Source: Thermoplasmata archaeon (GTDB lineage: Archaea > Thermoplasmatota > E2 > UBA9212). Taken from it: a DNA stretch of 17,390 bases. Made by a program: the position numbers and the translations under genes. The notes under the pieces are model-generated. The model was not told the DNA's origin. It searched no databases and saw only the letters and a list, made by a program, of their open reading frames with translations. Below are positions 1,231 through 13,650 of this stretch, piece by piece. The DNA lies in NCBI GenBank assembly GCA_013329495.1, contig DUKC01000198.1, positions 1 through 17,390 of the forward strand, given 5' to 3'. The number at the start of each line of letters is the position of its first letter. Positions within the stretch are counted from its first letter, which is position 1.

Positions 1231-1254
1231 CCGCAAATTCCTTTGATAACTGCC

Positions 1255-3021
1255 ATGAAACAGAAAATTCTGTGTCTTTTGATCATTTCCTCTTTGTTAA
1301 TTGGTCAGCTTCTTCTCTCCCCGCTGTGCTTGGAGAGAGAAGAGCGCTTAATCGAAATAGATCGAGAAAAGTACATGCAGAGAATCGATGACCTGCTCAC
1401 CAATTGGCTCGGATATGGAAGAGGGGAGACTGGCTTGTTTTACATATGGATGAATGCTAGCACCAATAAACCAAAACCGGGTTTTTGTCAGGTGAGCGGA
1501 GAGTACATTCCGTATGAAGCTGACACGGAGGAATTTAAGCTCCCATTGGCCCTGTGGTACACCTGGTTGCTCACTGGAAATGAAACGTGCAAGGAAGGCT
1601 GTGAGAGGGCGGTCGATGCTTGGTGGGAGTATGCGATCGATTCAAAAACAGATTTGGCGGCCGCAGGATTCAGGTGGGGATACGGAGGCGGGGTGGATGC
1701 TAGAACTGGGGAATGGAATGAACCGGAAATTGTTCATTGGTATGCAATCCCTCAGGCGGCCCTGTTTGGCCATTGGAGGGAGTACATGTTCTCTTGCAAG
1801 AGTGCTTATGATAGATTAATAATAGAGACAAAGGGTTGGTTGTATCCTTCTGTGAGAGGAATATGGGCAAAGAACGAAAACATCGCTCTGCCTAAAGCTA
1901 AAGAAGATGTGGATGGTTGTTATTACGGCGACTTTGTTGTGACCTTTATCTTGCCTCTCTGGGCAGAAACCCATGATACGGGATACGTAGACGTTGCTGA
2001 TGAAATTCTCGGACAGTTTATGGAGCTGGAAAACAAGAAAACTGGTCTTTACCCTACCTCGCTGAGAGAAAACAGAGAAGCAACCATCAAAAAGGGATTG
2101 ACTGATTGGTACGACACCGCATTCATTGAATCAACAGTCAGCAACATGATCCTATATGAAGTGTCAAATCATGGGCCATTGCACGAGAAGGTATGCAAGG
2201 ACATTGACACCGTGATAGAAAAGTGTTGGAATGCGGAAGAGCAAAGGCCTTACAGAGTGGTAAACACATTGACTGGCGAGGGAAAAGGATTGCTGGATTG
2301 GTGGACAGAATACTGTTTTGTTTATGCATTCCTTCAAAGATATCATGAGACGGATGATGAAAAATATCTAATGTATGCTGAGCTTCTAGGCCAGAACTAT
2401 CTGGATGCCAAAGAGAGGATAGCAAGAGGAGAGGCATTCAGACCGAACGAATTGGCTAATGCGGGCATGGTCCTGCTCAATCTGTACCAGTGGACTGGAA
2501 AAGAGGAATACTTGGAAGGGGCAATCTGGCTTGGGGATTACATCGTAGAGAATGGATTTTACGACAACGGCTGGTTGAAGTTTTGGACCGCTAACTGGGA
2601 AGATGAGAAAGATGTTAACGGGTGGACAACCGCTGATTGCCACATGACCGCATGGACGGTGCAGTTCCTGCTGTCTCTAGCATACGAAACCTTCATGCCG
2701 GACTGGATGATGTGGGAACACCTCGTGGGGATAAATTCTCCTTATACTCTAACCAATGGATGCCTGGAGCTAGGAGACTATGAGCTAAACTATGAAAGAA
2801 AAGACATAGTGTTTAGTCTGACAGCAGCAAAAACCAGTTCTGCTGAAGTTTACGTCAATGTTCCCTATTCTTGGAATGGAGGAAGAGTTCTCTTAAATGG
2901 GAGAGAAATTCCTTTTGAAGAGCAGGTTTTGAGTGCAAGAAAATACGTCGTAATTAGGACGAATTTCCAAACAGACTCAAACACCGTGAGAGTGGATTAC
3001 AAGCCTTTCGGAGGAGGTTGA
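1255..3021 (+). CDS. Secreted alpha-helical-barrel protein, probable glycoside hydrolase or lyase
   Basis: A 588-residue protein with an N-terminal Sec-type signal (MKQK then a hydrophobic run, residues 5-24); it has no clear lipobox. The body (about 35-490) is rich in Trp/Tyr/Asp helices with repeated hairpin features: WYTWLLTG, HWYAIPQAA, YGDFVVTFILPLWAET, WYDTAFIESTVSNMIL, DWWTEYCFVYAFL, ANAGMVLLNLYQWTG, ADCHMTAWTVQFLLSLAYE. These resemble an (alpha/alpha)6 barrel of the six-hairpin glycosidase or polysaccharide-lyase type. Residues ~505-585 look like a C-terminal beta-sandwich. Ten cysteines outside the signal (78, 112, 116, 181, 222, 314, 324, 354, 462, 503) could form disulfides outside the cell. 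I could not assign a CAZy family or catalytic pair. The last codons carry the SD of dapB, so the two genes are probably cotranscribed. Secretion is likely; enzymatic class is inferred from fold-like patterns only. Confidence 0.7.
   Translation: MKQKILCLLIISSLLIGQLLLSPLCLEREERLIEIDREKYMQRIDDLLTNWLGYGRGETGLFYIWMNASTNKPKPGFCQVSGEYIPYEADTEEFKLPLALWYTWLLTGNETCKEGCERAVDAWWEYAIDSKTDLAAAGFRWGYGGGVDARTGEWNEPEIVHWYAIPQAALFGHWREYMFSCKSAYDRLIIETKGWLYPSVRGIWAKNENIALPKAKEDVDGCYYGDFVVTFILPLWAETHDTGYVDVADEILGQFMELENKKTGLYPTSLRENREATIKKGLTDWYDTAFIESTVSNMILYEVSNHGPLHEKVCKDIDTVIEKCWNAEEQRPYRVVNTLTGEGKGLLDWWTEYCFVYAFLQRYHETDDEKYLMYAELLGQNYLDAKERIARGEAFRPNELANAGMVLLNLYQWTGKEEYLEGAIWLGDYIVENGFYDNGWLKFWTANWEDEKDVNGWTTADCHMTAWTVQFLLSLAYETFMPDWMMWEHLVGINSPYTLTNGCLELGDYELNYERKDIVFSLTAAKTSSAEVYVNVPYSWNGGRVLLNGREIPFEEQVLSARKYVVIRTNFQTDSNTVRVDYKPFGGG
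3010..3017 (+). promoter_or_regulatory. Strong Shine-Dalgarno for dapB inside the preceding gene
   Basis: GGAGGAGG lies in the final Gly codons of the secreted protein gene, 6 nt before the ATG at 3024. It overlaps the end of the upstream gene (stop 3019-3021), which implies translational coupling and decides the dapB start in favour of 3024 over 3078. Confidence 0.6.
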
Positions 3022-3023
3022 AG

Positions 3024-3845
3024 ATGAGAAAGTTAGAACAAAAACCGAAATCACCATCTCAAGTTTATCGAGGAAAAATGATAAGGGTAGCAGTTGCTGG
3101 TGCAAACGGAAAGATGGGCTCTCTGATATGCAGAGACATCTTGGAGCAAGATGACATGAGCCTGGTAGCCGCGATGGACATAAAGGGTGTTGGAAAAAAG
3201 ATCGGGGATTTGGAGATTAGAGATGCGAGAGGGATGGGTGAAATCTTTGACGAGCTCTCTCCAGATCTCTATGTGGATTTCACGGTTGCGGATTCGTCGG
3301 TGAAAAACATCGAGACTGCTTCTGAGAAAGGGATTAACCTAGTGGTTGGAACGACGGGTTTCTCAAAAGAGCAAGAAGAAAGAATTAGGAGAGCGGTTGA
3401 GGGCAAGGTCTCAGCGGTCATTTCCCCGAACTTTTCTTTGGGCGTGAACGTTTTTTGGAGACTCACAAAAGAAGCGGCCTCCCATTTGAAAGACTATGAT
3501 GTCGAGATAATCGAGGCCCATGACAGACTAAAGAAAGACTCACCGAGCGGAACGGCCAGGAGAACCTATGAGATCGTGTGCGAAGTTCTTGGAGAGAGGA
3601 AGCCAGTGTATGGAAGGAGCGGATCAGGTGAGAGAGGAGAGGGCATAGGAATACACTCGATTCGGGCAGGGGACATCGTGTCCGATCACACAATTTTGTT
3701 TGGTGGGGATGGAGAGCGATTGGAGATAACGCATAAGGCGCAGAGCTGGGAACCGTTTTCATCGGGCGTTCTCATGTCAATAAGGTGGTTATCCAAGGGA
3801 AGGGAAAAGAAGATATACGAGATGGAAGACGTTCTTGAACTCTAA
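3024..3845 (+). CDS. dapB: 4-hydroxy-tetrahydrodipicolinate reductase
   Basis: DapB reduces 4-hydroxy-tetrahydrodipicolinate with NAD(P)H in the diaminopimelate route to lysine. Counting from the internal Met at 3078, the nucleotide-binding loop is VAGANGKMG (6-14), followed by VDFT (66-69), GTTGF (91-95) and SPNFSLGVNV (116-125). The catalytic segment is EAHDRLKKDSPSGTA: His148 and Lys152 match the E. coli His159/Lys163 spacing, but the second His of the usual HH pair is Asp. The family usually begins at the 3078 Met, which would give about 255 residues, near typical. The strong SD points to ATG 3024, adding an 18-residue basic leader; either start is possible. No other dap gene is present. 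It follows the secreted protein gene by 2 nt. Confidence 0.93.
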   Translation: MRKLEQKPKSPSQVYRGKMIRVAVAGANGKMGSLICRDILEQDDMSLVAAMDIKGVGKKIGDLEIRDARGMGEIFDELSPDLYVDFTVADSSVKNIETASEKGINLVVGTTGFSKEQEERIRRAVEGKVSAVISPNFSLGVNVFWRLTKEAASHLKDYDVEIIEAHDRLKKDSPSGTARRTYEIVCEVLGERKPVYGRSGSGERGEGIGIHSIRAGDIVSDHTILFGGDGERLEITHKAQSWEPFSSGVLMSIRWLSKGREKKIYEMEDVLEL

Positions 3846-4085
3846 ATCAAAAGGCAATGGACAAACATGATTACCTCACGGACCCTTTTTTGTCGAAGGT
3901 GGTGTGAAATGCCAGCGCGTGGCCAGTCCAAAATAATTTGAGGCATGAGACGTATGCAAAGAGTGTCTTATGGAATCGATAAGCATAAATGATAAGGATG
4001 TCGCTTGGGCAAAGTGACTTGACTAAGAAGAAATCCGGTCTTTCTAATTTTTATCTTTTTATAAGAATGAGCGCATCAGGCAAAC
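3846..4085. other. Convergent intergenic region between dapB and galK
   Basis: A 240-bp gap between the 3' ends of two convergent genes. It holds a T6 run at 3886-3891 that could serve as an archaeal U-rich terminator for dapB, and another T-rich patch near 4045-4062. A weak GCCA/TGGC stem at 3911-3923 is too short to call. I see no gene. Confidence 0.5.
3886..3891 (+). terminator. Possible T-run terminator of dapB
   Basis: Six consecutive T residues follow CCC about 40 nt after the dapB stop. Archaeal termination often uses U-tracts without a hairpin. This is weak evidence. Confidence 0.3.
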
Positions 4086-5255
4086 TTATTTGATACGTTT
4101 TGCTCCATTGGCTGCCTCGCAAACATACAACTTTGGCTTGAAGCCTGTCGCCTCGGAGTAAAGTTTTTCTATTTTTCCGACAAAGCCTTTAACTTGTGTT
4201 GTTTCAACCAGGCTCACAGTCGATCCCCCAAATCCCGCACCAGTTAGGCGTGAGCCTACGCACCCCCTCAATCCTCTTGCAATGTTCACCGCCTTATCGA
4301 GCTCCTTCGAACTGACCGCATAATCACTTCTCAGAGATCGATGCGAATCGTTCATGAGCTTGCCAAATCCTTCTAGATTCCCTCGCTTTAACAAGTCAAC
4401 CGCTTCAATCACCCTTTCGTTTTCCTTCACTACGTGCCTTGCCCTCTTTCTTAAGGTTGGAGGCATGTCTTCCTCGTGCTTTTCTAATTGTGAGAGGGAA
4501 ACGCCTCTCAGTGCTTTGACTTCGGGGTAATACTTTTTGAGAAATCCGAGTGCTTCTTTACACTCTCTTCTCCTCTGGTTGTAAGAGCTTTTTGACAACT
4601 CCCTTCTCACTCCTGTATCGAGGACAACCGCCTTATAGTCTTTCGGAAAGGGAACATACTCATGCTTTAATTCGCGGCAGTCGATGAAAATTGCATGCTT
4701 TGCTCTCCCAAATCTGGAAGCAAACTGGTCCATTATTCCACAGTCAACTCCGACAAAATGATTCTCTGCCCGCCTGCAGAGTTTCACAGCTTCTAACGAA
4801 GCTAACCCGAATCCCGAAGTTGATTCAAAAATCAATTCGGTAAGAACTTCCAGAGCCCCAGAGGAGGATAGACCAGAGCCTACTGGTAAATTTGAGGCAA
4901 AAATCCCTTGAAAACCTTTTAATTTGTGACCTTCCTTTCTAAGTTCAAGCCCCACTCCCTGTAAATAGTCTAACCAGGTGTTGGTCTTTCTTGTTTCATT
5001 GAGTTGGTTAAGAAAAAATTTCCTAGTTTCTTTCATCAACAAAGAGCGAACTCTAACTTGGGGGGAATCCGAGGGTAAAACTGCTGCCCTTAAGCCGAGA
5101 TTGATCGCGATTGGCAGCACAAAACCATCGTTGTAATCGGTGTGTTCCCCAATAAGGTTCACTCTGCCAGGCGCTCTGAAGAAAAGAGGGGGCTTCTTTT
5201 CTCCAGTTAGCTTGAATAATTGATCTTTTAACTCGCTCGATTTCACTCTTTCCAT
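4086..5255 (-). CDS. galK: Galactokinase
   Basis: GHMP-family sugar kinase of 389 residues, the normal family length, that phosphorylates galactose to galactose-1-phosphate in the cytoplasm. The galactokinase signature GRVNLIGEHTDYNDG is at 30-44, with Arg31 in the catalytic position. The ATP-binding loop PVGSGLSSSGAL is at 124-135. GIMDQFASRFG (173-183) carries the catalytic Asp176. The third GHMP motif, SRLTGAGFGGSTVSL, is near the C-terminus. The ATG at 5255 overlaps the end of galT by 13 nt, so the pair is translationally linked and transcribed galT first. Its product is the substrate of GalT. The GEHTDYNDG signature favours galactose over other GHMP substrates. Confidence 0.95.
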   Translation of the reverse strand: MERVKSSELKDQLFKLTGEKKPPLFFRAPGRVNLIGEHTDYNDGFVLPIAINLGLRAAVLPSDSPQVRVRSLLMKETRKFFLNQLNETRKTNTWLDYLQGVGLELRKEGHKLKGFQGIFASNLPVGSGLSSSGALEVLTELIFESTSGFGLASLEAVKLCRRAENHFVGVDCGIMDQFASRFGRAKHAIFIDCRELKHEYVPFPKDYKAVVLDTGVRRELSKSSYNQRRRECKEALGFLKKYYPEVKALRGVSLSQLEKHEEDMPPTLRKRARHVVKENERVIEAVDLLKRGNLEGFGKLMNDSHRSLRSDYAVSSKELDKAVNIARGLRGCVGSRLTGAGFGGSTVSLVETTQVKGFVGKIEKLYSEATGFKPKLYVCEAANGAKRIK

Positions 5256-6196
5256 TTTGTCTTTTTTAATTCCCTCGCCTTTTCCTCTGGCAATGTATCG
5301 TTAATAAACACTCCAGTCCCAGATTCAACTGATGCTAAATATTTTATCTTTTCCTTGCTTCTGTGCAGAGGCCTGAATTCGATTCTGAAGTGATAGAACG
5401 GATAATCCTTTCCATCTGTGGGTGATTGAAAGAGCATCATCATGTAAGGAAGTTCAAATCCAAAGAATCTGTCGTACTTGGTAATGATTGCCTTGATGGA
5501 CTCGGCAAGATCCTTTTTTCCATGGTCATCTAGTTGAGTTATCGAACCGAGATGAGATTTTGGATATAGGTGAACTTCGTAAGGAAGAGAAGCAAAGAAT
5601 GGGACAAATCCAACAAACCTCTCATTTTCAAAGATTATTCTTTCACTCTTTTCTTTCTCCCCCTCGATAATCGAGCAGAACAAGCACCGCCCGTGCTTTT
5701 CCATCCATTTTTTGCTAGATTCTACCTCTCTCTGGAGGGCTTCAGGAACAAACGGAAACGCGTAGATCTGGCCGTGGGGATGATCTAGAGTGACTCCGAT
5801 TAGCCTTCCTTTGTTCTCAAAAATAAAAACGTATTTTATTCCAGGTTTGCTCCCAAGTTCCTCGTACCGATCTATCCACAGGTTAATCAGTTCTATCAAG
5901 CTATCGGTAGACTGGTCCTTTAAACCTTTATCATGGTCCTTGCTGTAGATCACCACTTCGCATTTACCGTATGCTGGGCACTTTACAAACAATGGACTCT
6001 CATTGCTCACACTTCTTGAATTTTCCAATAGCGAAGGGAAGAGATTGGGAATGCTTATCACTTCGAGCTCTCCCGGAGCTCCTTCGACCTCTTCACAAAA
6101 AGGGCACTGCTTTCTGCTCAGTAACGGTCGGGTTTGGCGATGGGTTGCTACTATGACCCACTCCTGCCTTATTGGGTTCCACCTTAGTTCTTCCAT
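5243..6196 (-). CDS. galT: Galactose-1-phosphate uridylyltransferase
   Basis: GalT transfers UMP between UDP-glucose and galactose-1-phosphate in the Leloir pathway. It is 317 residues from the ATG at 6196. CPFC at 31-34 and CLFC at 171-174 are Cys pairs; C31, C34, H88 and H139 match the E. coli zinc ligands. The active site LDHPHGQIYAFPF at 138-149 has the UMP-accepting nucleophile His141 and Gln143. YPFYHFRIEFRP (265-276) fits the C-terminal metal-site strand. An in-frame TTG at 6235 would add 13 residues (PKLLLKKGALEI...), but homologues begin near ELRWNPIRQEWV, so I prefer 6196. Upstream A/T boxes at 6238-6250 and 6215-6226 can each act as promoter. It is the first gene of the galT-galK operon. 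No UDP-galactose 4-epimerase gene is present in the window. Confidence 0.93.
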   Translation of the reverse strand: MEELRWNPIRQEWVIVATHRQTRPLLSRKQCPFCEEVEGAPGELEVISIPNLFPSLLENSRSVSNESPLFVKCPAYGKCEVVIYSKDHDKGLKDQSTDSLIELINLWIDRYEELGSKPGIKYVFIFENKGRLIGVTLDHPHGQIYAFPFVPEALQREVESSKKWMEKHGRCLFCSIIEGEKEKSERIIFENERFVGFVPFFASLPYEVHLYPKSHLGSITQLDDHGKKDLAESIKAIITKYDRFFGFELPYMMMLFQSPTDGKDYPFYHFRIEFRPLHRSKEKIKYLASVESGTGVFINDTLPEEKARELKKTKWKE

Positions 6197-6236
6197 AATT
6201 TCTAATGCCCCTTTCTTTAATAATAGTTTAGGCAAG

Positions 6237-6391: not shown

Positions 6392-7819
6392 ATGTATGCA
6401 ATCCTTGGATGTGGAGCAGTAGGCAAGGAAGTAGCGGAGCAGCTAGTTTCGAGAGGAAAAAAAGTAGTCATCATTGATCGGAGCCCTGTGAGAGTTGAGA
6501 GTCTAAAAGAGCTTGGGTTTGAAGCCATAGTTGGAGGCATAGCTAAAGTAGATCCTGAGAGCCCGCCTCTCAAAGATGCAAATCCCATTCTTATCCTTTC
6601 ATCTTCTGACAACAGCAATCTTGAGACTCTAAAAAGAATAAAGAAAAGCACTCCCGAGAAGCTGGTGGTTGTGAGAGCTAAAAGTCCAAATCTTGTTGCC
6701 GAACTAAAAAAAGCAAAGGCGGATGAGGTGATAGTAACCCCAAAGATCATCGCACAATCCTTGATCCGACAGATTGGAGAACACGAGCTTGAATCGAACA
6801 CTGAAAAGTTGGTTGTGGTTATCAAACAGGCCAAGGAGGGAGGAGTCGCAATCTTTATGCATGATAATCCTGATCCGGATTCTATAGCATCTTCCCTTGC
6901 CTTTGCTGAGATCTGCAAAAAGTTTAAGGTTCCTCACAGAATTTTTTATGGCGGCCAGATCTCCCATCAAGAAAATCGTGCACTTGTGAACCTTATAGGA
7001 GTTGAGTTTGAAAAGGTGGTGAATCCAACCTCCTCCCTTGAAATAGTTAACCAAGCAGGGAAAGTTGCCTTGATAGAATCTTCAATACCCGGCATAAACA
7101 ACTCATTGCCAAAGGATGTTGTGCCAGATGTAGTGATAGATCATCATGAAGCCCGAGTGGTCAAGGGTGAATTTGTCGATGTCAGAAGTGATATTTGTGC
7201 TGTGGCAACCATGATGACCCAGTATCTCCAGCAATTGTCGATCGTACCCGACGAAAAACTTGCAACTTGTCTTTTCTACGCAATACGGGTTGATGCCTCT
7301 TTGTTAACTCGCTCGATTTCACCAACCGAACTTCAGATCATGAACTATCTTTCAACGCTGGCTGATCCCGAACTCTTAGAAGCGATAGAATCGCCCCCAT
7401 ACAGCATAGAGACAATAGACACGCTATCTAAAGCGATAACACATCGTGAGGTAAGAGGCTCTTATTTGGTCACCTCCGTGGGTTTTACAAACGAGCTGAA
7501 TGCCATATCCCAGGCAGCGGATTTTCTGTTGAGGCTTGAGGGCGTTTCAACGGTCTTGGTTTCTGGAATTGTGGGAGAAAACATCCATCTCAGCGCGAGA
7601 TCCAAAGACTCACGAGTGAACTTGGGCACGCTCTTACAAAACGCTTTTGGTAAAGAGCATGCGGGGGGTCATTCTTCAGCTGCGGGGGGAAAGGTGCCTT
7701 TGGGCATCTTTAGCAAGGGTGGAGAAAAGGAAGACATCCAAAATTTTGTTGAAAACGCAGTAAAATTCCAATTCTTTGCCGCTCTGAATGGAGAAGCGAC
7801 TCTCAAAAGTAAAGCATAG
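6392..7819 (+). CDS. TrkA-N/DHH-DHHA1 phosphoesterase
   Basis: A 475-residue two-part protein. Residues 1-~125 form an RCK/TrkA-N Rossmann domain with the GCGAVG loop (Gly6, Gly8, Gly11) and acidic Asp29 at the end of strand 2, suggesting NAD(H) or another nucleotide as ligand. Residues ~140-310 are a DHH phosphoesterase: motif I DNPDPDSIASS (158-168), motif II VALIESSIPG (225-234), motif III IDHHEA (249-254), motif IV YAIRVDASLLTR (296-307). DHHA1 follows, with GKEHAGGHSSAAGG at 420-433. Such proteins hydrolyse short oligoribonucleotides or cyclic dinucleotides in Mn-dependent reactions; the exact substrate here is unknown. In motif II the metal-binding Asp position is Glu229. This is conservative and may be common in the archaeal branch. 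It stands alone, divergent from galT and convergent with upp. Confidence 0.88.
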   Translation: MYAILGCGAVGKEVAEQLVSRGKKVVIIDRSPVRVESLKELGFEAIVGGIAKVDPESPPLKDANPILILSSSDNSNLETLKRIKKSTPEKLVVVRAKSPNLVAELKKAKADEVIVTPKIIAQSLIRQIGEHELESNTEKLVVVIKQAKEGGVAIFMHDNPDPDSIASSLAFAEICKKFKVPHRIFYGGQISHQENRALVNLIGVEFEKVVNPTSSLEIVNQAGKVALIESSIPGINNSLPKDVVPDVVIDHHEARVVKGEFVDVRSDICAVATMMTQYLQQLSIVPDEKLATCLFYAIRVDASLLTRSISPTELQIMNYLSTLADPELLEAIESPPYSIETIDTLSKAITHREVRGSYLVTSVGFTNELNAISQAADFLLRLEGVSTVLVSGIVGENIHLSARSKDSRVNLGTLLQNAFGKEHAGGHSSAAGGKVPLGIFSKGGEKEDIQNFVENAVKFQFFAALNGEATLKSKA

Positions 7820-10139: not shown

Positions 10140-10381
10140 ATGGCGTCAAATTCATAGAAAGCTTTTCAGGCAGAATTGTATCTCGCGTGTTCTGTAATGC
10201 CGTTGAATAATAAAGAATATCTTGAAATGTCCAGACGGCTGTTTGTCATAGGTGTTTTGAGAGAGTGGATTAAAATGCGTTTTGAAGATGATCTGCATGA
10301 AAAAAACCCATTTTTAAACATTTAAAAGAGAAAGTTTATATGTTATCAACTCTGTTAACAAAGTTACCAAGAGAAGGGATG
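10140..10381. other. Intergenic region before the thpR-cca operon
   Basis: A 242-bp A/T-rich spacer without a recognisable gene. Its 3' end holds the operon promoter, and just after that three GTTA units at 10342, 10354 and 10363 that could form an operator. Confidence 0.4.
10334..10342 (+). promoter_or_regulatory. TATA box of the winged-helix/thpR/cca operon
   Basis: AGTTTATATG is centred about 44 nt before the ATG at 10382. It would give a leader of about 16-18 nt holding the SD GAGAAGGG (10371-10378). An A/T stretch at 10312-10328 is an alternative. Because the box covers the upstream ATG at 10340, that ATG is unlikely to be used. Confidence 0.4.
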
Positions 10382-10960
10382 ATGAGTAATGAGAATACAG
10401 CTTTAAAAGATGTTATAGTGGAATACTTAAGAAAAAAGCATGAGTCCATCAGCGGAGTGAGTAAAAAGTTAGAGGAAGATGGTTTAAAATATAACAGACT
10501 GGTTATTGCTGGCTACTTGAAGGCGTTGGCTGATGTGGGTTTGGTCAAAGAGACTGAAGTGAAGCCGGCAAAGGTGTATTCTCCTGGCCAAGCATGCAAA
10601 AAAACCATTTATGAGGTTGTTGGAGATGAAATAAAGAAGTGTAAACTGGGTTCTTCTGAAGAAGTGGAATTGGCTGTTCACTGTTTGGAGAAGCTTTTTT
10701 CTAGAGCGATATTTATGGATGAGATCAGACGATGCGGCCTAGATCCAAAAACCATCGATGCAAAAAAAGCGGATCAGGGAGAAAGAGCCAAGGCTAGAAC
10801 GAAGCTTGCGAAATGCAAGATGAAGCTCCCCTTCAACGATCCTGCGTATTTGCCAAAGCCAGGTCAGGATTATAGTGAATTATCAGACGTGATACTCACC
10901 CAAGCTTTTTTGCAAGCTTATGATGCGGAAAACCTTAGAGTAAAAAACAAGAAAGATTGA
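10382..10960 (+). CDS. Conserved-looking winged-helix protein of unknown function
   Basis: 192 residues from the ATG at 10382, chosen because GAGAAGGG precedes it; frames from 10340 add 14 residues. Residues ~5-68 look like a winged helix: ALKDVIVEYLRKK, then ISGVSKKLEEDG, a probable recognition helix NRLVIAGYLKALADVGLV, and a basic wing ETEVKPAKVY. The middle (72-125) is helical (ELAVHCLEKLFSRAIFMDEIRRCGL), and 126-150 is strongly basic (KKADQGERAKARTKLAKCKMKLP), suiting nucleic acid binding. Five cysteines show no zinc pattern. It is first in an operon with thpR and the cca fusion, so it may regulate or take part in tRNA maturation. I do not recognise a named family. Confidence 0.8.
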   Translation: MSNENTALKDVIVEYLRKKHESISGVSKKLEEDGLKYNRLVIAGYLKALADVGLVKETEVKPAKVYSPGQACKKTIYEVVGDEIKKCKLGSSEEVELAVHCLEKLFSRAIFMDEIRRCGLDPKTIDAKKADQGERAKARTKLAKCKMKLPFNDPAYLPKPGQDYSELSDVILTQAFLQAYDAENLRVKNKKD

Positions 10961-10979: not shown

Positions 10980-11525
10980 ATGAGATTGTTCGTTGCTGTT
11001 GACATACCAAAAAATGAGTTGATTAGAAGCTTTTTGGATAAGATAAGGGGGTGCGATCCAGACCTAAAAGTAGTAGCCCCAGAAAATTTGCACTTAACTC
11101 TCAAATTTCTAGGCGAAACGGACAAGGATCCGGCGGAGGTGGAGCAGGCTATTGAAAAAGCATCAAAAGGAGTGGAAAGCTTTAGAATGGCGCTAGAGGG
11201 ATGTGGGGTCTTTCCAAATCGAAACTATATTAGAGTGGTGTGGATTGGAGTGAAAGATGCTGGAAATCTTAAAGAATTGGCTGACGAACTTGACCGGGAA
11301 TTAGAAACTCTTGGATTTAAGAGAGAAAGCAGAAGTTTTTTACCTCATCTGACGGTTGCCAGAGTAAAATCAAAGAGAGGGAAAGATGAGATAATGAGAG
11401 TTCTAGACGAGTTTAATAGGGTTAAATTTTGTGAGTTTGAAGTAAGCGAACTCAAACTATACCAGAGCACTCTCTTGCAGGGGGGTCCTGTTTACACTCA
11501 ACTCAGGGAAGTTAGATTGGGATAA
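10980..11525 (+). CDS. thpR: RNA 2',3'-cyclic phosphodiesterase (LigT/2H family)
   Basis: A 181-residue 2H phosphoesterase, the usual length, that opens 2',3'-cyclic phosphates on RNA or seals 2'-5' bonds. Both catalytic HxT motifs are present: H38-L-T40 in ENLHLTLKFLGE and H123-L-T125 in FLPHLTVARVK. The start MRLFVAVDIP is typical of the family. It follows the winged-helix gene by 19 nt, with the strong SD GGTAGGAGGG just before the ATG at 10980. The next gene starts 1 nt after its stop, and a thpR-cca pairing is familiar in euryarchaea. The context fits processing of tRNA ends or intron-cleavage products. Confidence 0.93.
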   Translation: MRLFVAVDIPKNELIRSFLDKIRGCDPDLKVVAPENLHLTLKFLGETDKDPAEVEQAIEKASKGVESFRMALEGCGVFPNRNYIRVVWIGVKDAGNLKELADELDRELETLGFKRESRSFLPHLTVARVKSKRGKDEIMRVLDEFNRVKFCEFEVSELKLYQSTLLQGGPVYTQLREVRLG

Positions 11526-11526
11526 G

Positions 11527-13650
11527 ATGGAAACTCAGCTTATTGCAGGAATTATCCTGGGTCTAAACCTACTTCTTTTCGTTCCCTTTTTTTTCTTATT
11601 CGTGCCTAAAAAAGTTTTTAGGTATAACAGACAGAACCTGTTCAAAATCCTCTCGAAGTACAAACTGTACATCGTTGTGCTTGGCAGTGTTTTCATTCTT
11701 CAATCGATTGAAGTAAATCTTGTCGACAGGCCGACCACTACTTGGTTGATGCAGTACATTGGAGAAGATGGCTTCGCTCCCTTCTTTTATTCCATTGAAA
11801 ACGGATGGGTCGCATCGATGGCTGACTATTGGTGCAAGCCTCTGCTTTATTACTTCGTGTTTTTTTATTTGGTTGTATACTCTTTCGTCCTGTGGTTCAT
11901 ACCTGTCATTTTTCTCCTGAATGATAAGGAGTGGCACACAAGATTCGTTCTGCTTTTTTATCCCATGATGTGGGCAATCCAGTTGCCTTTTCTCTTGTTC
12001 TTTCCAGTGACCAATGTTTACAAGTATTTTGGACTTCAGTCTACTTTGGAGATGATAATTCCTGGGGTAGAGGCGTCTTTTTATACAGTAACCTCCATAA
12101 ACAACTGCTTTCCTTCATTGCACATAGGATTTGCCGTTTCTGCGGTGATAATCGCGTTCCTTTCGGATAACAAAAGACTGAAAGGGTTTACCCCCGTGTT
12201 TTCTTTGTCTGTCATTCTTGCAACCATTTATCTGGTCATACATTGGTTATTGGATGTACTGGGGGGTGCACTTCTAGCGCTGTTGGTAGGGTGGCTGCTA
12301 TGGAAAAAACTCAATCCACAATCGATAACTCTTTCACGCGTAAAGCCAAGTCGAGGAGAAGTGAGCAGGCTCAAGACGGCGGTTGCTTTACTGGAGGACA
12401 AGGCAAAAAACGAAGTAAAGGGCAAAGGCATAGAGGTCCAGCTGGTGGGCTCTGTGGCAAAGGACACCTACCTCAAAGACTCGATTGACATCGATCTCTT
12501 CTTGCTTTTCCCGCCCTCTACCGACTGGAATGAACTAGAAGCGGAGGGACTTTCGATAGGGAAAAGAGTGTTGGAGAAATGGGAGCTGAAGTATGCGGAG
12601 CACCCCTACATTCATGGGGATTTTGGAGGTTATGAAGTAGACGTGGTTCCTTGTTATAAAGTGGGGTCTGCAAAAAATATCTTATCTGCAGTTGACCGAA
12701 CTCCTTTTCATACCCAGTACATCAATGCAGCCTTAAAGCGCAGGCAAAGAAACCAAGTTAGGTTGCTAAAGCAATTTCTGAAAGGAATAGGGATATATGG
12801 CGCAGGGGCCGAAGCCGATGGCTTCTCGGGGTATCTATGTGAATTATTGATTCTCAGGTACGGGTCATTCAAAAAGGTGTTGGATCACGCTCCAAAATGG
12901 AGTAAAGAAGGCCTCACACTAACCGAAGGATCTCCATCGAAATTTGATTCTTCTCTCGTTTTTATCGATCCCGTCGATCCGAATAGGAATGTGGCAGCGG
13001 CTGTGACTGGAAGAAGTCTGGAGATATTCGAGAAAGCGTCGGATGCTTATCTTGAGGACCCCTCAATAAGATTCTTTTTTCCATTGGAGCCGAAACCGCT
13101 AAACGTTGAAGAAATAAGATCTAGGCTCGGACGAGAAGAAAGATTGATTGGGTTTGAGGTGAAGGTACCTGTTATTTCCTCAGAAATTCTATTGCCTCAA
13201 ATCAAAAAAGCTGAAAGGAATGCGAGGAGTCTGCTTGAGGAGAATGGATTCAATTGCAAACACGCCCTTCACACTTTGGCTGGCAGTAAAACACTCTTTT
13301 TATTTGAGCTGGAATCAGTTGTCCTGTCTGAACCTTTGCTTCATAGGGGTCCCCTGGCCAAAGACGAAGAGAACTCCAAGAAATTCACAGAGAGATGGAC
13401 CAAAAACAAAAGAACCATTAAAGGGCCTTATGTGGAGGGTAAGAGATGGGTAGTGGAAATAGAGAGGGAATTTTCAAATGCGTATGACTTGCTCAACAAG
13501 AAGTTAATGAAAATCAATCTTGGCAAAAACATCAAACCACAGATAAAAGAGGGATACGATTTGCTTAGACAAGAGGACTTGTTTAAAGAGCCGTATAGGA
13601 GGTTTGTTGGCAAGCTCATTGAAGCAAAATATCCGTGGGAGTATAAGTAA
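11527..13650 (+). CDS. cca: Fusion of PAP2/Aur1-type membrane phosphatase with tRNA CCA-adding enzyme
   Basis: A single open frame of 707 residues; archaeal CCA enzymes are ~440. Residues 1-260 form a membrane domain with about seven hydrophobic helices (1-27, 47-61, 105-131, 138-160, 197-213, 221-238, 241-259). It has PAP2_3 motifs FPSLHIG (195-201, His199) and HWLLDVLGG (239-247, His239, Asp243), as in lipid phosphotransferases. The positive-inside rule puts these residues outside the membrane and the C-terminus inside. Residues ~270-707 are a complete class I nucleotidyltransferase that adds CCA to tRNA. LVGSVAKDTYLKDSIDIDLFLLFPP (306-330) has catalytic Asp321/Asp323, and Asp372 is in YEVDVVPCY. 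AVDRTPFH, FSGYLCELLI, DPVDPNRNVAA and the C-terminal LGKNI...LFKEP blocks match archaeal homologues. A GTG at 12361 (residue 279) after GAGGAG could give a free CCA enzyme. It is last in the thpR operon. Confidence 0.9.
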   Translation: METQLIAGIILGLNLLLFVPFFFLFVPKKVFRYNRQNLFKILSKYKLYIVVLGSVFILQSIEVNLVDRPTTTWLMQYIGEDGFAPFFYSIENGWVASMADYWCKPLLYYFVFFYLVVYSFVLWFIPVIFLLNDKEWHTRFVLLFYPMMWAIQLPFLLFFPVTNVYKYFGLQSTLEMIIPGVEASFYTVTSINNCFPSLHIGFAVSAVIIAFLSDNKRLKGFTPVFSLSVILATIYLVIHWLLDVLGGALLALLVGWLLWKKLNPQSITLSRVKPSRGEVSRLKTAVALLEDKAKNEVKGKGIEVQLVGSVAKDTYLKDSIDIDLFLLFPPSTDWNELEAEGLSIGKRVLEKWELKYAEHPYIHGDFGGYEVDVVPCYKVGSAKNILSAVDRTPFHTQYINAALKRRQRNQVRLLKQFLKGIGIYGAGAEADGFSGYLCELLILRYGSFKKVLDHAPKWSKEGLTLTEGSPSKFDSSLVFIDPVDPNRNVAAAVTGRSLEIFEKASDAYLEDPSIRFFFPLEPKPLNVEEIRSRLGREERLIGFEVKVPVISSEILLPQIKKAERNARSLLEENGFNCKHALHTLAGSKTLFLFELESVVLSEPLLHRGPLAKDEENSKKFTERWTKNKRTIKGPYVEGKRWVVEIEREFSNAYDLLNKKLMKINLGKNIKPQIKEGYDLLRQEDLFKEPYRRFVGKLIEAKYPWEYK
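12353..12363 (+). promoter_or_regulatory. Possible internal SD and GTG start for the CCA domain
   Basis: GAGGAG (12353-12358) precedes an in-frame GTG at 12361 (codon 279 of the fusion) at the membrane/CCA boundary. The spacing is short (2-4 nt). If used, it would make a soluble 429-residue CCA enzyme lacking only a few N-terminal residues. Confidence 0.3.

Follow-up and report, generated by a model that had tools for sequence, protein, structure and literature searches.

A single gene in the Thermoplasmata archaeon assembly GCA_013329495.1 joins a PAP2/Aur1-type membrane domain to a complete archaeal class I CCA-adding enzyme. The gene lies on the forward strand of contig DUKC01000198.1, whose 17,390 nucleotides analyzed here are referred to as the window, and it forms one open frame from an ATG at position 11527 to a stop codon ending at 13650 (707 residues). 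The fusion is real, and it is neither an artefact nor a singleton. In the reading that we favor, with a probability of roughly 0.65, the membrane half holds the tRNA end-finishing CCA enzyme of the cell at the inner face of the membrane, and this tethering is the trait shared by the fused proteins.

Architecture and Occurrence of the Fused Gene

The assignment of the gene is based on Pfam, NCBIfam, and full-length relatives. For the 707-residue protein, Pfam returns PAP2 (PF01569) at 39.0 bits (cut-off 27.2) and PAP2_3 (PF14378) at 32.4 bits (cut-off 27), and in the CCA half NTP_transf_2, tRNA_NucTransf2, and CAA_C each score above their cut-offs. The NCBIfam equivalog TIGR03671 (cca_archaeal) matches residues 269-667 at 412 bits, the cut-off being 281.3. 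At E ≤ 0.001 only the PAP2, PAP2_3, and CCA domains are found by Pfam on the fused protein, and a CURT1/CAAD domain is not among them. A previous inspection of the letters by themselves (the sequence-only reading) had placed both domains in one uninterrupted frame, and indeed both halves lie within it above curated cut-offs; the positions then given for His199, His239, Asp243, Asp321, Asp323, and Asp372 are likewise correct.

That inspection had also proposed a search for the same domain order in other archaea. The nearest relatives found, P0002 and P0003, are fused and are 68-69% identical to the window protein across the whole length. A profile of eight fused proteins matched 3684 proteins at E ≤ 1e-100, and both halves are present in 59 of the best 120 of these (P0050 among them, with a partial PAP2 domain), which argues against a lone chance fusion. 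It was the CCA half that filled these tables, and further relatives of the PAP2 half could be absent. Fused genes are also present in the assemblies HGW-Thermoplasmata-1, AUK212, AUK133, AUK221, and S4B1_HD70. Because full-length fused relatives occur in several assemblies, chance and assembly error are excluded, and a frameshift or assembly artefact as the source of the fused frame as such is already refuted. Where the listing of the best matches shows a name for a fused protein, in some cases incomplete, it is that of a CCA enzyme or, once, 'hypothetical protein'; a membrane domain is mentioned in none of those shown.

Among 80 genomes of the same class, seven carry the fusion, namely G000, the genome of the window (family f1), G002 (f3), and G022, G024, G051, G059, and G060 (f9), with the contig of G059 beginning within the last PAP2 helix of the fused gene. 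A strict search of 389 genomes of the phylum adds G080 (f12) along with G091 and G117 (f23). Long frames among 214 genomes add at least two more, G099 and G112 (f29), among the matches listed, and further fusions may have been missed. The total is at least 12 fused genomes in six families, one of the genes being cut by its contig. An in-frame PAP2 domain is present in none of nine other long CCA frames (G095, G196, G151, G194, G097, G141, G003, G120, and G224).

The CCA-Adding Half

The CCA-adding half, as delineated by NCBIfam and structural alignment, extends from residue 269 to residue 707 (12331-13647, forward strand). It contains the catalytic DxD motif (12487-12495), contributed by Asp321 (12487-12489) and Asp323 (12493-12495), and, by alignment, the third catalytic acid, Asp372 (12640-12642), which is D or E in relatives. 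With the third position scored as either residue, these acids are kept in all 112 rows of an alignment that leaves out L243 and L244. The match to the solved enzymes from Archaeoglobus fulgidus (AfCCA; 1r89 and 3ova) has an E value of about 4e-79; the identity is 36-37%, the fold aligns over residues 4 to 435, and the same three catalytic acids are found in both. Whereas AfCCA is without a membrane domain, here an integral seven-helix domain comes first. With its 707 residues and seven predicted membrane helices, the protein is not a stand-alone soluble enzyme of ~440 residues, a form that is usual for archaeal CCA enzymes but not defining for the activity. By family, fold, and catalytic acids the fused gene is predicted to encode a functional CCA-adding enzyme.

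In each of the 12 fused genomes there is one PF09249 match, which is the fused gene, and a PF01743 match is absent from all 12. The tRNA genes were located via Rfam, aragorn having given one tRNA gene in 266 kb. In the genome of the window 33 tRNA genes were found, and CCA is encoded in none of the 30 examined; in G060 there are 43, and 27 of the 30 examined are without an encoded CCA. Given this sole CCA match and tRNA genes that lack CCA, tRNA function relies, to judge from the assemblies, on the fused enzyme.

The Membrane Half

The membrane half comprises residues 1-265 (11527-12321, forward strand). In the structure model it is predicted to contain seven helices of at least 13 residues arranged in a fold like that of a PAP2_3/Aur1-type inositol phosphorylceramide synthase (9vj4). 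The identity to 9vj4 is 14%, and the two differ in that the membrane half described here is joined to an RNA enzyme and its triad is lost in many fused relatives. In the classic three-motif lipid phosphatases (PgpB/LPP), the first motif is K-x6-R-P. It was not found in residues 1-265, and the membrane half is therefore not filed under that subgroup. From alignment, the PAP2 triad consists of His199 of the FPSLH motif (12121-12123, forward strand) and of His239 (12241-12243) and Asp243 (12253-12255) of the HWLLD motif (12241-12255, forward strand). In the loops that precede the CCA half, with borders set by us from the model, lysines and arginines account for 9 of 34 residues inside versus 2 of 78 outside. 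This distribution supports the orientation that the sequence-only reading had deduced, with the C-terminus inside and the PAP2 active site outside, and from charge and fold together we infer the membrane face of each half.

The His-His-Asp triad is present in the window protein, in P0002, P0003, and HGW-Thermoplasmata-1, and in the f9 rows; with it intact, the PAP2 half of the window may act on a lipid phosphate outside. The triad is whole in 57 of 57 unfused rows, of which 14 were collected by a scan that relied in part on NNC[FL]PSLH and 43 by motif-free searches, and it is broken in 23 of 59 fused clusters, a figure that excludes genome rows. Note that L053 is scored as unfused in this comparison, though its frame is cut off by the contig end and it groups with fused f9. 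The count of triad changes leaves out P0050 (585 residues, partial PAP2) together with L247 and L248, both of which are not in the tree concerned.

One could envision a coupled two-sided enzyme, in which the PAP2 domain would use a polyprenyl phosphate or archaeal lipid phosphate on the outer side as its substrate and would signal via its last helix to the CCA half, thereby tying tRNA maturation to envelope lipid turnover. The proteins with intact triads just named, the helical nature of the junction, and a PAP2-cca gene order that is kept even in the separate state are in keeping with such a scheme. It is nonetheless quite improbable, given the broken triad in 23 of the fused clusters and a second PAP2 gene in G000 (C19, 8033-8383; PF01569 at 84 bits versus 41.8 for the fused gene) that could do the ordinary lipid-phosphate work. 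A link between lipid-phosphate turnover and tRNA maturation, as suggested previously, is possible in the window, but it cannot explain why the architecture is shared, since those 23 clusters keep the fusion after triad loss.

The Junction

On the basis of the model and of the spacing in aligned rows, the junction (residues 244-274; 12256-12348, forward strand) is composed of the rest of the last membrane helix (241-262), a helix from 264 to 272, and Pro274. In 65 of the 69 fused rows, which include near-duplicates (genome copies of database clusters), Asp243 and the CCA start at Pro274 are 31 residues apart. Alignment to the A. fulgidus structure begins with residue 4 of that enzyme at residue 262 of the model, the end of the last membrane helix. 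There is thus no loose spacer, and the separation of about 15 residues between the halves given in the sequence-only reading does not hold.

Within the frame lies a GTG codon (Val279; 12361-12363, forward strand) with AGGAG two bases before it; the usual gap between a Shine-Dalgarno sequence and a start codon is longer. The residue is replaced by Ala in P0002 and P0003 and by Glu in HGW-Thermoplasmata-1, and in the structural alignment its position falls within the CCA fold. An in-frame ATG is located between the last helix and Pro274 in two of the 12 fused loci (L031 and L119), and AGGAG, GGAGG, or GGTGA occurs in nine of the 12 within the 45 codons scanned from the HWxxD motif; the idea that fused junctions have neither a Shine-Dalgarno-like string nor an ATG was dropped on these grounds. 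The AGGAG-GTG pair of the window is not shared by the other 11 fused loci, and the stop-plus-ATG arrangement of separate genes was seen in none of the 12.

That the frame is a product of a frameshift, of sequencing, or of assembly, or that the CCA half is translated only from the internal GTG, as had been entertained, is extremely improbable. The AGGAG speaks for the second of these, but the GTG is not conserved, a start there would remove part of the CCA fold, fused proteins from several assemblies make up 59 of the best 120 listed, and no fused locus shows the stop-plus-ATG of separate genes. In light of the AGGAG, initiation at GTG 12361 is no more than unlikely, as is a shorter CCA product from an internal start.

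A Proposed Membrane Anchor for tRNA 3'-End Synthesis

In the favored reading, seven PAP2/Aur1-type helices would be embedded in the membrane with the catalytic pocket facing outward, and the last helix would pass into the helix at the N-terminus of a complete cytoplasmic class I CCA enzyme, with no loose linker between them. The CCA domain would add CCA to the tRNAs of the cell, such that synthesis and repair of tRNA 3' ends would occur at the inner membrane face. Decay of the triad has taken place in other lineages, where the predicted fold, the junction length, and the CCA site are kept. Since the membrane half outlives its active site, while the junction keeps its length and the CCA site its residues, the shared selected trait would be tethering and not the phosphatase chemistry. 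Our best reading is that the chemistry is dispensable in some lineages, though the triad is intact in the window. The frame, the domains, their conservation, the states of the triad, the single CCA gene detected, and the tRNA genes lacking CCA are observed, the fold and topology are predicted, and tethering as the function, along with CCA addition at the membrane, is what we infer; the tethering suggested by the sequence-only reading is supported as a likely consequence of fusion and topology. A broader proposal stands at about even odds. Under it, an integral membrane enzyme would perform all tRNA 3'-end synthesis in several Thermoplasmatota lineages, anchored by what was once a lipid phosphatase and is catalytically dead in some of these lineages, and the whole tRNA pool would pass the membrane surface.

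Several points weigh against tethering as the shared trait. The assembly of the window's genome is 82% complete and may lack a further CCA gene, and the rows compared are metagenome assemblies. The placement of the domains in the model rests on the predicted template modeling score (pTM). The ATG codons in L031 and L119 and the AGGAG of the window may allow a shorter CCA product. The contrast in triad loss is partly one of sampling, as a dead unfused PAP2 may be lost or missed, and 22 of the 23 triad-broken clusters fall in one group. The lineage of the window itself retains the whole triad, and an active phosphatase is possible there. Lastly, 76 of the 139 rows in the large tree described below do without the fusion, and in family f2 PAP2 and cca are adjacent yet separate.

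Evolution of the Fusion

The CCA and PAP2 trees agree in that the fused f9 group is sister to unfused f2, with the window and HGW-Thermoplasmata-1 located elsewhere. A single fused clade is rejected on the class-level CCA tree (approximately unbiased test, p 0.0045), and joining the window group with HGW-Thermoplasmata-1 is not (p 0.18). The larger tree (63 fused and 76 unfused rows) requires at least five changes of state; it is a quick tree with several weak branches, and it leaves out near-duplicates, rows of less than 250 residues, and L268. These trees do not tell fusion from fission. That several clades share the 31-residue spacing points to an old fusion followed by splits. In the in-frame f2 loci there are 41 codons at the place of the junction in 14 of the 15 scorable by pattern, which fits a split by short insertion and also fits an unfused ancestor. 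Against a simple history, the unfused PAP2 of L032 sits inside the PAP2 clade of the window.

The loci came from a contig scan with a PAP2 profile and represent the best 80 of 165 relatives; the far loci L079-L110 (Paenibacillus and others) were dropped, except for L081, L086, and L097. The archaeal loci are nearly all titled Thermoplasmata, Thermoplasmatales, Thermoplasmatota, or Euryarchaeota. At 40 of the 80 named loci cca is in reach, being fused in five, in the same frame in 22, and in another frame in 13. All but one of the 22 abut, parted by a stop codon that is followed by an ATG at 0 or +3 bases (in L054 the genes are 1.4 kb apart), and in 13 of these 21 the end of PAP2 encodes AAGGAG, a Shine-Dalgarno-like string for the cca ATG. 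In those f5 and f8 genomes that show both genes, PAP2 is far from cca or on another contig. The sequence-only reading took separate frames in close relatives to tell against a genuine fusion; such frames occur in families f2 and f17, but the nearest relatives are fused.

The abutting genes bear on a neutral operon fusion, in which neighboring housekeeping genes were joined by loss of a stop codon, the halves work alone, and the membrane location is tolerated rather than selected. As the 21 pairs among those 40 loci are in frame, one point change would fuse them, P0050 resembles such a stop loss, and 76 of the 139 rows in the large tree are unfused. We nevertheless consider this account unlikely, for the junction length is fixed (31 in 65 of 69 rows), the architecture occurs in six families and several clades, and the whole membrane domain is kept after decay of its active site, whereas a dead passenger phosphatase would be expected to be trimmed.

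Three of the unfused or variant arrangements merit description. P0050, a 585-residue protein of the f2 lineage, has a Tyr at the place of the PAP2/cca stop and a degenerate PAP2 triad, and is perhaps a recent fusion via stop loss. In L032 (UBA186), a stand-alone PAP2 gene at 3245-4090, 46% identical to the window's, lies beside a galT-like gene, and a cca match was not found on its 4.7-kb contig; galT-like and galactokinase-like genes, named by eye, are also present in the window at 4086-6235. Many Paenibacillus genomes (most of L079-L110) encode PAP2 proteins that are 27-33% identical to the window domain, and an archaeal-type cca match was not found in the fetched flanks of those loci.

Gene Neighborhood

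The gene order on the forward strand of the window is u206, thpR, and the fused gene, whose frame starts one base after the end of thpR. The thpR gene (10980-11525, forward strand) encodes an RNA 2',3'-cyclic phosphodiesterase (TIGR02258, 165 bits). It had been said to precede cca, and this is the case directly upstream at all 11 fused loci with room for it. In f31 (L255 and L284) thpR is likewise directly upstream of an unfused cca without PAP2.

In some bacterial CCA enzymes an HD domain provides phosphate-removing and cyclic-phosphate activities. Together with the constant position of thpR, this brings to mind a three-step repair of tRNA 3' ends, whereby ThpR would open 2',3'-cyclic phosphates, PAP2 would remove the phosphate, and the CCA domain would rebuild the end. 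Such a scheme is very improbable. His199 and His239/Asp243 are positioned at the starts of helices whose other ends face the C-terminus, and with a cytoplasmic CCA domain the phosphatase site would lie outside, away from the RNA. Moreover, the triad is lost in many fused proteins, and thpR also stands ahead of the unfused cca in f31.

The u206 gene (10340-10960, forward strand) encodes a 206-residue protein with no Pfam or NCBIfam match at E ≤ 0.001. A homologue, 46% identical, lies upstream of thpR in HGW-Thermoplasmata-1, and in an f4 genome (L133 of G009) a weak one (31%) separates PAP2 from cca. The order there is PAP2, u206, and cca, with a far diverged PAP2 (23% identity), and it suggests that the PAP2/cca neighborhood is old. 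Elsewhere on the forward strand of the window, one frame (6392-7819) contains TrkA_N, DHH, and DHHA1 domains according to Pfam, and a 592-residue protein adjoining dapB (1243-3021) has a signal-like N-terminus by eye and only a sub-cut-off match to glycosyl hydrolase 88.

Relation to Known Membrane-Bound tRNA Enzymes

A search of the open-licence literature, which was not exhaustive, found nothing on a PAP2-CCA fusion. In LysX of Mycobacterium, the two activities form one pathway, from lysyl-tRNA to lipid. There, too, a membrane lipid enzyme is fused to a tRNA enzyme, namely an MprF-type membrane domain to a lysyl-tRNA synthetase (PMC2713425). Unlike in LysX, no joint pathway of the two halves is evident in PAP2-CCA. 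The CAAD-anchored aminoacyl-tRNA synthetases of cyanobacteria are likewise tRNA enzymes fixed to the membrane by an added domain, and contiguous genes in relatives of one of them and a recurrent origin are reported for them; they differ from PAP2-CCA in enzyme class, in anchor (CURT1/CAAD), and in being bacterial (PMC4893482). By analogy, the PAP2-CCA protein would work like these enzymes, but it is not a member of the group.

The fused architecture is hidden behind the names of CCA-enzyme proteins. Most accounts regard the addition of CCA as a housekeeping reaction of soluble enzymes in the cytoplasm. Here a conserved fusion would place the only detected CCA enzyme in the membrane, and its transmembrane partner seems in some lineages to have become no more than an anchor, which suggests a spatially organized tRNA maturation in archaea. 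If this is true, the membrane surface would be a site of tRNA maturation in these organisms.
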